This document shows positions 22,873 through 33,272 of a stretch of 33,272 nt of DNA, one piece after another (the first letter of the stretch is position 1; every line of letters begins with the position of its first letter). The position numbers and the translations under genes are program-made. The stretch is from an uncultured Alphaproteobacteria bacterium. GTDB lineage: Bacteria > Pseudomonadota > Alphaproteobacteria > CAAHEQ01 > UBA3637. The DNA lies in NCBI GenBank assembly GCA_947629595.1, contig CANREI010000004.1, forward strand, positions 1 through 33,272, read 5' to 3'. The notes beneath the pieces were generated by a model. The model had not been told where the DNA came from, did no database searches, and saw only the letters and a program-made list of their open reading frames with translations.

Positions 22873-22942
22873 TTTTCCCTCTATCGGCGGGTGGGACAGA
22901 CGGCTTTATGTCGTCTGTCGCTATGGGCCGATAGGGGGAAAA
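22873..22942 (-). repeat. Nested-hairpin element, copy 0, downstream of the left pilin-like gene
   Basis: Outer arms TTTTCCCTCTATCGGC (22873-22888) / GCCGATAGGGGGAAAA (22927-22942); inner stem GACAGACG (22895-22902) / CGTCTGTC (22912-22919). Confidence 0.88.
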
Positions 22943-23059
22943 TGAGTACGGCATTGCACATTTTCTACCCGAAAAGAGAGGAGAGGTGCCCCGCTGAATG
23001 GAAGCCTTAAAGGCGGGGCATCGGGAGGGACGATGGCTTCGTCCTCTCAAAAGCTGGCC

Positions 23060-24637
23060 TCACTCACATAAGGCATAGTCGAAGCTGCCGTTGCCGCGAC
23101 TGATGTAGTCGAGGTAACCGTTATAGAGGTAGACGCGGTACGCGAAGCAGGAAGAATCATTACTTCCATATGGATCGCTCAACCATAAATACTGGCTCGG
23201 ACGACTGTCTTCCTTCCCGTTATACGCCTTGCTTAATTCCTTCACTCCACTACTTACATCATCACTCGTGCTAGACTTATTACACGCCATCTCTGACCCC
23301 TCTGCATGGCAATATCCATATATACACTCTCCTCCGCTATATTGAATTTTATGCCTACATTGTAATTCAGAAATTGTCACCATGTGTTTATTACCCGGCA
23401 ACGCCTCGCAGAACCGCTTCGCACTCCACCAGGTCATAACCTTTGTTGATATAATGTATTTACTGCTTATATCTCCTGATTTGTTAATATCACTTTCTGC
23501 CTTCCTGCACTCACTCTTATAAGTGTCACTCCCCTCACCAAAGCCTTTGCTCTTATCAAATTCACTTGTGCAACTATATCCCCGATACAAATAGCAATAC
23601 TCTCCCTCTTTGCAATCAGCATTACTCTCGCATTCGCCGATTTTGCAGCGTTGTTTTTCTTCATCCCAATCGGCACATTGGTTGCATGTACCATAATTAG
23701 CGTAATAACCTGTATCGCACCAATAATGCTTCCCGTCTCCTTTTTTATCACAATCACTGTTCGTTCTGCATTCAACACATTGATTACTATACAAAACCGG
23801 CTTATCTTCCGGACATGTGGCAACACATTCACTGCCGTTCCAGTTTGGTGTATCCGGATAAACATTTTTGCAAGTATCACACTTACCCTCGGCGTTACAA
23901 ATCGGATAACTTGAACTGGTGCAATGGCTGTTATCACCGCATGCCGCACACTCTTCTATTTCTTTATTCCAATGCTGACTTGATGAGCATTTGCATTGCC
24001 TTGTCGCTTCATCCCACGGCGCGTCTTCCGGGCAGTTTTTACACGCACCGTCTGCGCTGCAATACCCTTCACACGTTGCCTCATCGCATTCTTTTCCGCC
24101 GCCCGAAACGCCCAAATCTTTGGTCGAAAAGGCTACCATTACTTCATTTTCTTCATTGTCACAAGGGATTTCCGCCGTCTCATAATCTTTACCGTTAATT
24201 TCTAATACGGCCGTATCATCCATGCCGTCTAATAAGGTTGCCAAAGGTTTACACACCCCGGCCGGTATGCCTGATAATGCAAATGAATAGCCCGTTTCTG
24301 TTTCGCCCGGCGTTTCTGTTTCTATATCTTCAAATTCAACCGCAACGCCATAATTTGCATTAAATTTTAAGTGTTTTTCATCATCGTACGGCGAGCCGAG
24401 CAATAATTCTTCCGCCCCTTGCGCAACTTTTATTTTTGCATCGGTGCGCATGAGGTTAATTTCATTCGCGATTTGATTCGCCTGATACCGATTCATGGCC
24501 ATTCTATATCCTGAAATGCCGCCGATTGAAATAACGCCGATAACGGCCAGAACGCCCAGCATTTCAACCATACTACGGCCTTGTTGCGCTTGATTTTCAA
24601 TTTGTTTTAATTGTTTTTTCCTTGTTTTATTGCTCAT
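23060..24637 (-). CDS. Pilin-like N-terminus, Cys-rich modules and C-type-lectin-like C-terminus
   Basis: QQGRSMVEMLGVLAVIGVISIGGISGYRMAMNRYQANQIANEINLMR (prepilin-like helix with Glu5); Cys-rich middle; MTWWSAKRFCEAL...YLWLSDPY...CFAYRVYLYNGYLDY...ALCE. Confidence 0.8.
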   Translation of the reverse strand: MSNKTRKKQLKQIENQAQQGRSMVEMLGVLAVIGVISIGGISGYRMAMNRYQANQIANEINLMRTDAKIKVAQGAEELLLGSPYDDEKHLKFNANYGVAVEFEDIETETPGETETGYSFALSGIPAGVCKPLATLLDGMDDTAVLEINGKDYETAEIPCDNEENEVMVAFSTKDLGVSGGGKECDEATCEGYCSADGACKNCPEDAPWDEATRQCKCSSSQHWNKEIEECAACGDNSHCTSSSYPICNAEGKCDTCKNVYPDTPNWNGSECVATCPEDKPVLYSNQCVECRTNSDCDKKGDGKHYWCDTGYYANYGTCNQCADWDEEKQRCKIGECESNADCKEGEYCYLYRGYSCTSEFDKSKGFGEGSDTYKSECRKAESDINKSGDISSKYIISTKVMTWWSAKRFCEALPGNKHMVTISELQCRHKIQYSGGECIYGYCHAEGSEMACNKSSTSDDVSSGVKELSKAYNGKEDSRPSQYLWLSDPYGSNDSSCFAYRVYLYNGYLDYISRGNGSFDYALCE

Positions 24638-24650
24638 TTTTCGCTTCCTT

Positions 24651-24840
24651 TCAATGCAAATAGCATAAAATAAACGTACCTTTAATGCAACGCTGATTCC
24701 GGGGTAAAATTACCCTTAAATTTTGGTAAAATGGCCTTTTTATAAACCATTGATATTGCATTAAAAATACCTCAAAATAAATTTTTTTTGAAAAAATCAA
24801 AAAAAAGTGTTGCAAAAATCGTACGTTTTTTTGATGCATA
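24651..24840 (-). promoter_or_regulatory. Leader of the left pilin-like gene (inverted copy of 25890-26088)
   Basis: Minus strand cgtacg-attttTGCAACACTTTTTTTTGATTTTTTCAAAAAAA...TTTAATGCAATATCAA...GGGTAATTTTACCC...GCGTTGCATTAAA...TTTATTTTATGCTATT closely matches the right leader. Confidence 0.75.
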
Positions 24841-25029: not shown

Positions 25030-25110
25030 GGGGCACACATCACTTGCCTTGCTTCCAGAATAAAAGCTTTTCATACCAATGTCAAGCAGAAAAAGCAGCA
25101 TCATTTATTT

Positions 25111-25177
25111 TTTCCTCTATCGGCCCATAGCGGAGCGGCACAGTTGCGCCGCTCCACATCCGCCGATAGAGGGGAAA
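25111..25177 (+). repeat. Nested-hairpin element A (type I)
   Basis: Outer TTTCCTCTATCGGC/GCCGATAGAGGGGAAA; inner GGAGCGGC (25132-25139) acagttgc GCCGCTCC (25148-25155). Confidence 0.9.
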
Positions 25178-25418: not shown

Positions 25419-25487
25419 TTTCCTCCTATCGGCACATAGCGACAGACGACATAAAGCCGTCTGTCACACCCGCCGATAGAGGGGAAA
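25419..25487 (+). repeat. Nested-hairpin element C (type I)
   Basis: Outer TTTCCTCCTATCGGC/GCCGATAGAGGGGAAA; inner GACAGACG (25441-25448) / CGTCTGTC (25458-25465). Confidence 0.9.
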
Positions 25488-25560: not shown

Positions 25561-25627
25561 TTTCTCATTCTCGGCACATAGCGGAACGTCACAATTGCGA
25601 CGTTCCACATCCGCCGAGAATGAGAGA
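25561..25627 (+). repeat. Nested-hairpin element D (type I)
   Basis: Outer TCTCATTCTCGGC/GCCGAGAATGAGA; inner GGAACGTC (25583-25590) acaattgc GACGTTCC (25599-25606). Confidence 0.9.
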
Positions 25628-25653
25628 CAGAGACACAATTTTCTTTTCCTGCC

Positions 25654-25774: not shown

Positions 25775-25842
25775 TTTCCCCCTGTCGGCCCATAGCGATG
25801 CGCCACTTTCTGCGGCGCAACCCACACGCCGATAGAAGGAAA
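25775..25842 (+). repeat. Nested-hairpin element F (type I, less perfect outer stem)
   Basis: Outer TTTCCCCCTGTCGGC/GCCGATAGAAGGAAA; inner TGCGCC/GGCGCA (25799/25814). Confidence 0.85.
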
Positions 25843-25889
25843 ATCCAGTGACAACGCTAAAAACCGACATATTTTCCCAATTACCTGTC

Positions 25890-26088
25890 CTCAAAAAAAC
25901 GTACGTTTTTTGCAACACTTTTTTTTGATTTTTTCAAAAAAATTTTATTTGGAGGTAAATTTAATGCAATATCAAAGGGTTATAAAAAGCCTGTTTTATC
26001 AATTTTTGAGGGTAATTTTACCCCCGAATCTGCGTTGCATTAAACGTACGTTTATTTTATGCTATTCGTATACTGAAAGGGAGTCGGA
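25890..26088 (+). promoter_or_regulatory. Leader of the right pilin-like gene (inverted copy of 24651-24840)
   Basis: CGTACG (25900-25905), TTTAATGCAA (25960-25969), GGGTAATTTTACCC (26010-26023), TTGCATTAAA (26035-26044), CGTACG (26045-26050). Confidence 0.75.
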
Positions 26089-26090
26089 AA

Positions 26091-27611
26091 ATGACAAGAA
26101 AATTAAAAAAACAAATTGAAACACGCTCTCAAAGCGGCCGGAGCATGATTGAAATGCTGGGGGTGCTGGCGATTATTGCCGTTCTGTCCATCGGTGGGAT
26201 TGTGGGCTATAAATTAGCTATGAACTACTATCAGGCCGATCAGATTGCGAATGAAATTAACTTAATGCGTAACGATTTAAAGGTTAAATATGCTCTGGGG
26301 AATGAAGAATTGTTATTGGGGGACCCTTATGATGATACACCCGCAGATGAAAATTACAGCGGGCATTTATCAACACAATATGATCGTTATCCCGTTGATT
26401 ATGATTGCATCCGCAAAGACAAAGCAGAATTTTATAATTGTCGCGAAACAGATGCTTATTATATTAAAGTGGGAAATGTTTCGAAAGGCGTCTGTAAGCC
26501 CCTCGCAACGCTTCTTAATGGCATGGACGGTTTAATGTATATGGAAATCAATAAAGAAGTTTATAAAGAAAATGATTTATGCACGAGTGATGAAAATAAT
26601 GAAATTTATATTGAATTTGATGCGGAAGAAGTGAATGGAAACTATGATTCGAATCGTCCCGAAGGTTGGTGCACTGATGATGACGATTGTGACGCTTCAA
26701 GACCTATTTGTGATATAGAAAATAATGAATGCGTGGAATGTATAGATTATACGGATTGCACGGATTCCACCAAACCCCGTTGTAATGTTGAACAAGGTAA
26801 TTGCGAATCGTGTCCGCCGGAAACGCCTAAATGGAACGGCGAAGAGTGTGTGGAATGTTTATCGTCTGCCGATTGCACGAATCTCGATAAACCAAATTGT
26901 AACGCAGGGACAAACACATGTGAAGCATGCCCGCCGGAAAAACCATTATGGAACGGCTCAAATTGTGAAGCTTGCCCTGAAGATGAACCGTGGAACGGCG
27001 AATCTTGCGGATGCAGAAGTAATGATGATTGCGAAACGGATGAATATTGCTCTATGTTGTGGCGTACAGGTGATATATGTCAAATTGCCGAAACAGGAAA
27101 GTGTAAAAAATTAGGCCATTATCAGAAAGAACAGTTTGATAATGAAACCTACTATGTATCAGATGAAACAATGACATGGTGGAGTGCTCAAAATTACTGT
27201 CAAGCCCTTACGCGCACAACAGATTGCGGCGGTAACATGGTGAGTTGGAGCAAACTCAATTTGCAATGCGCCAATGAAATTGTGGTTCAAGATGGTTGTA
27301 AATGCAGTGATGAAAATTGTAATTTGGATCACCAAGTCAAACAATGTCAACGATTAAGTCTCGCCGAAGGTATCCATTTGTATTGCAAAAAAGATACTGC
27401 CGGAACAAGCGGTTCATCAAATATTCCGGATAAACTGAAAACATTACGAGAAACGTTTTTTAACAATGACTCCGAAAGTTTTGTTTGGCTTAATGACGGA
27501 AATAATCCTTGCTATGCGTGGGTTATCGGACCAAACGGAATTGTTACCGCTCGTCCGCGATATTACGGTAGAGATATCTTGGTGAGCGACGGCCATGCCT
27601 TTTGTTATTAA
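26091..27611 (+). CDS. Pilin-like N-terminus, Cys-rich modules and C-type-lectin-like C-terminus (paralogue of 23060-24637)
   Basis: QSGRSMIEMLGVLAIIAVLSIGGIVGYKLAMNYYQADQIANEINLMRNDLKVKYALGNEELLLGDPYDD; CPPETPKWNGEEC/CPPEKPLWNGSNC modules; MTWWSAQNYCQAL...FVWLNDGNNPCYAWVI...AFCY. Confidence 0.8.
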   Translation: MTRKLKKQIETRSQSGRSMIEMLGVLAIIAVLSIGGIVGYKLAMNYYQADQIANEINLMRNDLKVKYALGNEELLLGDPYDDTPADENYSGHLSTQYDRYPVDYDCIRKDKAEFYNCRETDAYYIKVGNVSKGVCKPLATLLNGMDGLMYMEINKEVYKENDLCTSDENNEIYIEFDAEEVNGNYDSNRPEGWCTDDDDCDASRPICDIENNECVECIDYTDCTDSTKPRCNVEQGNCESCPPETPKWNGEECVECLSSADCTNLDKPNCNAGTNTCEACPPEKPLWNGSNCEACPEDEPWNGESCGCRSNDDCETDEYCSMLWRTGDICQIAETGKCKKLGHYQKEQFDNETYYVSDETMTWWSAQNYCQALTRTTDCGGNMVSWSKLNLQCANEIVVQDGCKCSDENCNLDHQVKQCQRLSLAEGIHLYCKKDTAGTSGSSNIPDKLKTLRETFFNNDSESFVWLNDGNNPCYAWVIGPNGIVTARPRYYGRDILVSDGHAFCY

Positions 27612-32093: not shown

Positions 32094-33272
32094 ATGGATG
32101 AGCGCACACCGCTTGATCAGGATAATCAGCTTTTATATGCGTTTTTAAATCGCAAAAAAACGCGCGATAATCAAGCTGCCGTGACGGCTCAACGGTTAGT
32201 CAATCTGTTTCGCCAACTTTCTTCTTTCAGCCCCGAATTTGTCGCACAATATAATCAAATGCTTTTAGGCGCCAATGATGAAATTCAAATGATGTTACAA
32301 GATATTGTCGGCGGGCCGACCGTTCGGCAATATTTAACCTATCTAAAACAGGCATACGGGCAAGCGGTTAACGAGCAGGAGGGCAGTGAAAAAACGTCTG
32401 TTTCATCCGTGAATACGGGCTATTTACCCTCTGCCGATGATGATACACCGTTTTATAAAACGGCATTGGGTTTTGGCGAAGCGGCTCCCAAACCATCCAG
32501 CGAACCGATTGTTACCATTCAAGATTTTACCAAATGGCAAAAATCACAAGAGGCCTTGATCAGAAAAGCCATGATGGCTCAAAATAAGGCTATTTCAAAA
32601 CTGGCACTGGCTTTATCCGAAAAGAAAAACACTGTCGACAATCAACCGACACCGCCAATTCAATCGGCCTATCCGCAGTCGCCGTTTCATATGCCGCAAC
32701 CCTCAACTCCTTATGTGAATCAAGCCGTCGGAACTCATTTACAATCCGATTTAACGCAATTTGAAGAACCAAATCCGGTTATGCAAAACAGCTTCTCTTC
32801 TTCGGATAACGGCAATCAGCCTGTTTTATCGGAAAACACGGCTGCATCGGAAATATCCGAAACCACAGCACCGCTTGAAGAACCGACAGCATTTGAATCG
32901 TTTGAAGAGACCGCCGCGACAACAGATAACACGTTTAATCTTCCCGAAGAAAGCGTTGAAGCACCTGTTTCGTTTGAAGAAACCGCAACAACAGATAACA
33001 CGTTTAATCTTCCCGAAGAAACCGTTGAAGCACCTGTTTCGTTTGAAGAAACCGCAACAACAACAGATAACACGTTTGCCCTTCCCGAAGAAGCCGTTGA
33101 AGCACCTGTTTCGTTTGAAGAAACCGCCGCGACAACAGATAACACGTTTGCTCTTCCCGAAGAAGCCGTTGAAGCACCTGTTTCGTTTGAAGAAACCGCC
33201 GCAACAACAGATAACACGTTTGCCCTTCCCGAAGAAACCGTTGAAGCACCTGTTTCGTTTGAAGAACCCGCC
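32094..33272 (+). CDS. Uncharacterised repeat-rich protein, 3' truncated by window edge
   Basis: GGAACAGAAA-ATG at 32094, frame open for 393 codons to the edge (absent from the ORF track, which lists closed ORFs); MDERTPLDQDNQLLYAFLNRKKTRDNQAAVTAQRLVNLFRQLSSFSPEF... Confidence 0.75.
   Translation, partial: MDERTPLDQDNQLLYAFLNRKKTRDNQAAVTAQRLVNLFRQLSSFSPEFVAQYNQMLLGANDEIQMMLQDIVGGPTVRQYLTYLKQAYGQAVNEQEGSEKTSVSSVNTGYLPSADDDTPFYKTALGFGEAAPKPSSEPIVTIQDFTKWQKSQEALIRKAMMAQNKAISKLALALSEKKNTVDNQPTPPIQSAYPQSPFHMPQPSTPYVNQAVGTHLQSDLTQFEEPNPVMQNSFSSSDNGNQPVLSENTAASEISETTAPLEEPTAFESFEETAATTDNTFNLPEESVEAPVSFEETATTDNTFNLPEETVEAPVSFEETATTTDNTFALPEEAVEAPVSFEETAATTDNTFALPEEAVEAPVSFEETAATTDNTFALPEETVEAPVSFEEPA
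32904..33272 (+). repeat. ~72-bp tandem coding repeats (EETAATTDNTFALPEEAVEAPVSF)
   Basis: At least five copies of gaagaaaccgc(cgc)gacaacagataacacgttt..cttcccgaagaa..cgttgaagcacctgtttcgttt with in-frame 3-nt length variation. Confidence 0.92.

Follow-up and report, generated by a model that had tools for sequence, protein, structure and literature searches.

A pilin-like gene ending in a run of NNY codons

The window analysed here is a stretch of 33,272 nucleotides from an uncultured Alphaproteobacteria bacterium (assembly GCA_947629595.1, contig CANREI010000004.1, positions 1 to 33,272); its features are listed in Table 1. The gene under study, hereafter the target gene, encodes a protein whose N-terminal sequence, GRSMVEMLGVLAVIGVISIGG, is a type IV pilin-like start. 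The motif GRSMVEMLGV was recognized in it by eye and compared with the class III leader and N-methylation motif, with E at +5. The Pfam N_methyl profile missed its cut-off both for the target protein (E 0.87) and for the neighbouring paralogue (E 0.033). The target protein is presumably exposed at the cell surface.

Table 1. Positions of the features identified in the window (VR, variable region)
Feature	Positions	Strand	Description	Basis
Target gene	23060..24637	-	525 aa, type IV pilin-like, Cys-rich stalk, C-terminal lectin-like domain	ORF
Pilin-like N-terminal segment	24503..24577	-	Residues 21-45	Sequence; Pfam N_methyl sub-threshold
C-terminal 205 aa	23063..23677	-	pLDDT 84, pTM 0.86; predicted C-type-lectin-like fold	AlphaFold2 model
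NNY run	23072..23140	-	23 consecutive NNY codons (codons 500-522 of 525), 38/69 nt G/C	
VR	23054..23152 (about)	-	From TCCTGC to GGCCAG, past the stop codon by 6 nt	Aligned copies in other pilin-lectin genes
Conserved 3' block TTATGTGAGTGAGGCCAG	23054..23071	-	Common to most VRs; candidate initiation-of-mutagenic-homing site (putative role)	
Small hairpin	23025..23048	-	Directly follows the VR; candidate target hairpin	
Divergent neighbouring paralogue	26091..27611	+	Architecture as target gene, no VR	
Palindromic element copies	22873-22941, 25110-25177, 25419-25487, 25561-25628, 25775-25843			
181-nt inverted repeat	24654-24834 and 25891-26071		Upstream of both divergent pilin genes; copies 90% complementary to each other	
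ORF of short tandem protein repeats (SSGRANVLSVVAAVSSNETGAST...)	32816-33217		At the window end	

About 100 candidate places related to the target protein were found in the genome (G000; 1.34 Mb, 77% complete), which makes these pilin-like places an unusually large paralogous family for an assembly of that size.

Pfam and NCBIfam profiles gave no named domain for the lectin-like part of the target protein. In the AlphaFold2 model, the VR forms the last strands of a C-type-lectin-like fold. Foldseek matches to this model were weak (best E 0.059), and C-type lectin folds dominated the top of the list; DUF1566 proteins and Legionella Lcl (8q4e, E 0.71) were also among the matches, and the Thermus aquaticus DGR variable protein appeared far lower. 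The likeness to the Lcl C-terminal domain and to the DUF1566-like lectin fold is a weak structural match and concerns the fold only. The VR lies at the 3' end of a gene with a predicted C-type-lectin fold, the fold matches being weak but consistent.

The 23-codon NNY run and its G/C content were recovered exactly as in the original prediction. The next longest NNY run in the target gene has 9 codons, and the longest in the 19 other genes of the window has 17. With NNY codons making up 51% overall, a run of 23 has a probability of about 1.7e-7 per start, and about 0.001 such runs are expected in the window. The divergent paralogue had been said to carry no such run, and the longest in its last 60 codons is indeed 8. 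Two other statements needed correction. The gene was described as otherwise rich in A-ending codons, which is right in direction but mild in degree (28% A and 31% T at third positions). The segment quoted is real, but its ends were drawn too tightly, as the part shared with other genes extends slightly further on both sides and includes the stop codon (Table 1). The recurrence of the run in register in other genes, described below, is stronger evidence than its length. The hairpin just past the VR was clear at two of the five copies tested, in the target gene and at L099, and absent at the three others; its conservation is not general.

Copies of the segment in this genome and in a sister species

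A degenerate pattern, in which third positions and a few others were fixed and the suspected adenines left free, had 7 matches in G000, against 14 in a sister species (G005; genome of about 1.6 Mb, 95% complete). The reversed pattern, used as a control, matched none in either genome. When the template inferred from aligned copies was used as a query (E<1e-5), 9 copies were found in G000 and about 24 in G005. Two further G005 copies came one from a separate search and one from a weaker match to the inferred template, for a total of about 24-26. At least seven hot spots of very probable DGR rewriting are present in G000, among them roughly the final 30 codons of the target gene, and about 25 in the sister species. 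Several G000 paralogues align with the VR at their 3' end though they are only about 40% identical elsewhere in the protein. Weaker, degraded copies of the VR are also present in G000.

The AAC tract that follows CGC has 4, 5 or 6 codons among the VRs of G000 and G005, and 12 codons in one target of G027 (L130, G027:C13) compared with four AAC in the G027 template (L106, G027:C69). These changes of length by whole codons would reflect either slippage during reverse transcription or the use of several templates. In the more complete genome G012 (98%), eight VRs were found with a third-position fingerprint of their own. There was no template among them, although G012 has a different DGR reverse transcriptase (RT). 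That enzyme (L009, G012:C4) and L008 (G020:C15) represent a second DGR RT type within this family, different from the one described below and adjoining CASWSASS...-type repeats.

Variation at adenines

In the alignment of 22 VRs, 20 first or second codon positions carried three or four bases each, and third positions were nearly fixed, down to the presence of T instead of C at the same codons. Since A was the commonest base at most of the hypervariable positions, an A-rich template is implied. One further adenine, in a TAC codon, was unchanged in 20 of the 22 VRs. Two synonymous types of template seem to exist, CTC NNT NNC GGT and CTT NNC NNT GGT.

Over its first 19 codons, the VR of the target gene differs from the inferred template at 11 of 21 adenines and at 1 of 36 other positions (Fisher p about 2e-5, a value that is partly circular, as this VR helped to infer the template). 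When the 22 VRs were compared with the real template of a relative, G027, changes were observed at 52% of A, 7% of C, 22% of G and 19% of T, and part of the change at non-adenine positions results from fixed synonymous differences between templates. Departure from the template almost only at template adenines was thus observed with the inferred template and with a relative's real one.

We compared the copies with each other according to the divergence of their flanks. Identity in the adenine columns was 0.29 for gene pairs with flanks more than 80% identical and 0.35 for pairs with flanks less than 40% identical, compared with 0.37 for independent draws. The non-adenine columns agreed at about 0.92 whatever the flank divergence, the two species included, which indicates that overwriting was recent. 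Such a pattern is expected if one shared template overwrites the copies again and again, each time with new errors at adenines, and is not expected from gene conversion or selection alone.

Templates, RT and Avd in related genomes

An A-rich template lying between an Avd-like gene and an RT gene was found in six relatives, three of the same genus (G001, G004 and G008) and three of the same family (G010, G029 and G027). The template inferred from the 22 VRs is almost identical to these real templates; that of G027 reads SCNAYNVNLNNGNVNNNNRNNNNYAVC (also given as SCNAYNVNLNNGNVNNNNRNNNNYAVCR) and is nearly the predicted one. The RT of the relatives is of the DGR type and contains the motifs GNLTSQ and YVDD; within the genus, G001, G004 and G008 have RTs with GxxxSQ and YVDD. 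Avd matched NF033474 over its whole length at E 1e-14, a match that falls short of the curated cut-off. Genus templates with a named record come from MAGs of Alphaproteobacteria; one such record is labelled roe deer cecum and another water buffalo rectum.

Template and VR occur on a single contig in G010, G029 and G004, and in all three the differences in the core are all at adenines. The G010 pair involves a pilin-lectin gene (L116, G010:C32, 1430-2250) that shares about 100 nt with a template located 719 nt downstream, with 16 differences, all at A. No RT was present within the stretch read around this pair; G010 has its only detected RT on a different contig (C50), which suggests that template and RT can be separate in this family. 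In G008, nearly all VR differences are at A when the G001 template is used for comparison. The single target found in G001 departs from the G001 template at several non-adenine sites as well; the DGR cassette of this genome is carried on a 147-kb contig.

In conclusion, the 3' segment of the target gene is very probably a DGR variable region. The adenine pattern and the templates of the relatives support the original prediction of a DGR target at the C-terminus of a lectin-like domain on a pilin-like scaffold.

Search for the RT, Avd and template in G000 and G005

No RT was detected in the 77%-complete G000 assembly, either with the RVT_1 profile or by tblastn with the RT of the genus, and no Avd was found there. 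No template was found either; the best G000 copy of the inferred template is 86% identical to it, and all copies are VR-like. The expectation that the sister species G005 would carry the template was not borne out, as the search with the inferred template yielded only VR-like copies; neither an RT nor an Avd was detected in this 95%-complete genome either. The original prediction had placed the RT and template at a remote site acting in trans, and all tests were compatible with it, with the RT and template of G000 itself missing from the incomplete assembly.

The absence of all three elements from G000 and G005 most likely results from loss during assembly or binning. In G033, the sole Avd (G033:C56:40-345) starts 40 bp from a contig end, with the template and RT expected beyond it in sequence that was not assembled. 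This position makes a contig break at the template site a likely cause of missing cassettes. Near-copies of the template may split an assembly at the template, and the resulting short contigs may drop from bins. Alternatively, some lineages may well have lost the enzyme, as the RT frame contains stop codons in G008 and G027 and has a truncated look in G034.

Other explanations of the variable segment

The same observations can be taken further, with VRs made by a DGR that has since been lost from the lineage of G000 and from G005, their diversity now being frozen and spread only by inheritance or recombination. The missing RT, Avd and template, the damaged RT genes of the three relatives and the degraded copies in G000 would all fit such a loss. 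The constant agreement of non-adenine columns across flank divergence and across two species points instead to recent overwriting, and the truncated G033 locus shows that assembly can cut cassettes at this very place. We therefore regard a former, now lost DGR as unlikely, and a live DGR serving the VR in trans as probable.

Gene conversion among pilin paralogues, combined with ordinary positive selection and no reverse transcription, could draw on about 100 paralogous places and use the conserved 3' block past the stop codon as an anchor. Such a process would not fix third positions while randomizing first and second ones, nor would it limit changes to the columns that have A in the relatives' templates; furthermore, the nearest paralogues have flanks in common but not the states of their adenine columns. 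This explanation is strongly disfavoured by these three observations, and we rejected it as highly improbable. A third reading involves no hypermutation, only ordinary bias in codon use or a GC-richer 3' end imported horizontally. It would explain why third-position C is more frequent in the segment (19/27) than in the rest of the gene, but it is refuted, with next to no chance of being correct, by other genes in which the third-position pattern recurs exactly while the first and second positions left free mostly differ, compared with zero matches for the reversed pattern.

A model for diversification in trans

In the DGR model, the RT and its Avd partner would copy an A-rich template RNA, reading AAC GCG TAC AAC GTY AAC CTC AAT AAC GGT AAC GTC AAC AAC AAC AAT CGC AAC..., and insert random bases opposite A. 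An RT and template would have to be present in G000 now, or to have been until recently. The resulting cDNA would then replace the corresponding segment of any one of several target genes scattered in the genome, as far as the conserved 3' block immediately beyond the stop codon. The residues changed would lie in the last strands of the C-type-lectin-like domain carried by the pilin-like protein, which could provide a changing set of binding surfaces. As the AAC tract changes by whole codons, the length of the loop may vary too. We tentatively propose, with confidence somewhat short of even, that dozens of pilin-lectin genes in the small genome of a gut alphaproteobacterium are diversified by one DGR acting in trans, which may change both the residues and the length of the loop.

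DGRs with many targets and acting in trans are already known. In cyanobacteria, DGRs have remote CLec targets, several of them dispersed per retroelement (PMC7517822). As here, the dispersed targets have a C-terminal lectin fold and a 3'-terminal VR; the cyanobacterial variable proteins are mostly predicted to be cytosolic and linked to regulation (PMC7517822), whereas the scaffold is pilin-like in the present case and the cognate RT and template are absent from the assembly. Thiohalocapsa PB-PSB1 has 15 target proteins with 21 VRs, and activity in trans was inferred from a perfect match at non-adenine positions (PMC10907252). It resembles the present system in the number of targets per genome, in the change of codon positions 1 and 2 and in the argument for trans action from non-adenine identity. 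It differs in genome size (7.95 Mb, with nine DGR loci) and in its targets, which are putative conflict-system sensors (PMC10907252); in G005, with a genome of about 1.6 Mb, most of the approximately 25 VRs belong to pilin-lectin genes. The RT of the relatives shares 39% identity with that of Bacteroides phage F2, and the phage relatives listed include Bacteroides phage RTs; compared with F2-type DGRs, the targets here are pilin-like proteins. What would distinguish the present case is the combination of a many-target DGR with pilin-like scaffolds in gut Alphaproteobacteria. No pilin-like scaffolds with this many dispersed DGR targets were found in the literature searched, a scope that excluded bioRxiv and most subscription papers.

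Surveys of metagenome contigs that start from the RT miss remote targets (Roux et al., 2021; PMC8144416). The present target was found from its codon pattern alone and opened the way to targets on pilin-like surface proteins throughout the family; the codon pattern is thus a testable route to DGR targets where the retroelement is missing from the assembly. Through DGR rewriting, the bacterium can probably alter the binding of its pilus-like proteins again and again and, if the system is active, gut bacteria with small genomes could rewrite many surface binding sites in parallel.

Other elements in the window

Around the two pilin genes there is a family of intergenic palindromes, each about 65-70 nt long (TCGGCCCATAGCG...CCGCCGATAGAGG). 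The 181-nt inverted repeat includes a ACGTACGTTT palindrome; from its position upstream of both genes, it is probably a promoter or leader common to the two.
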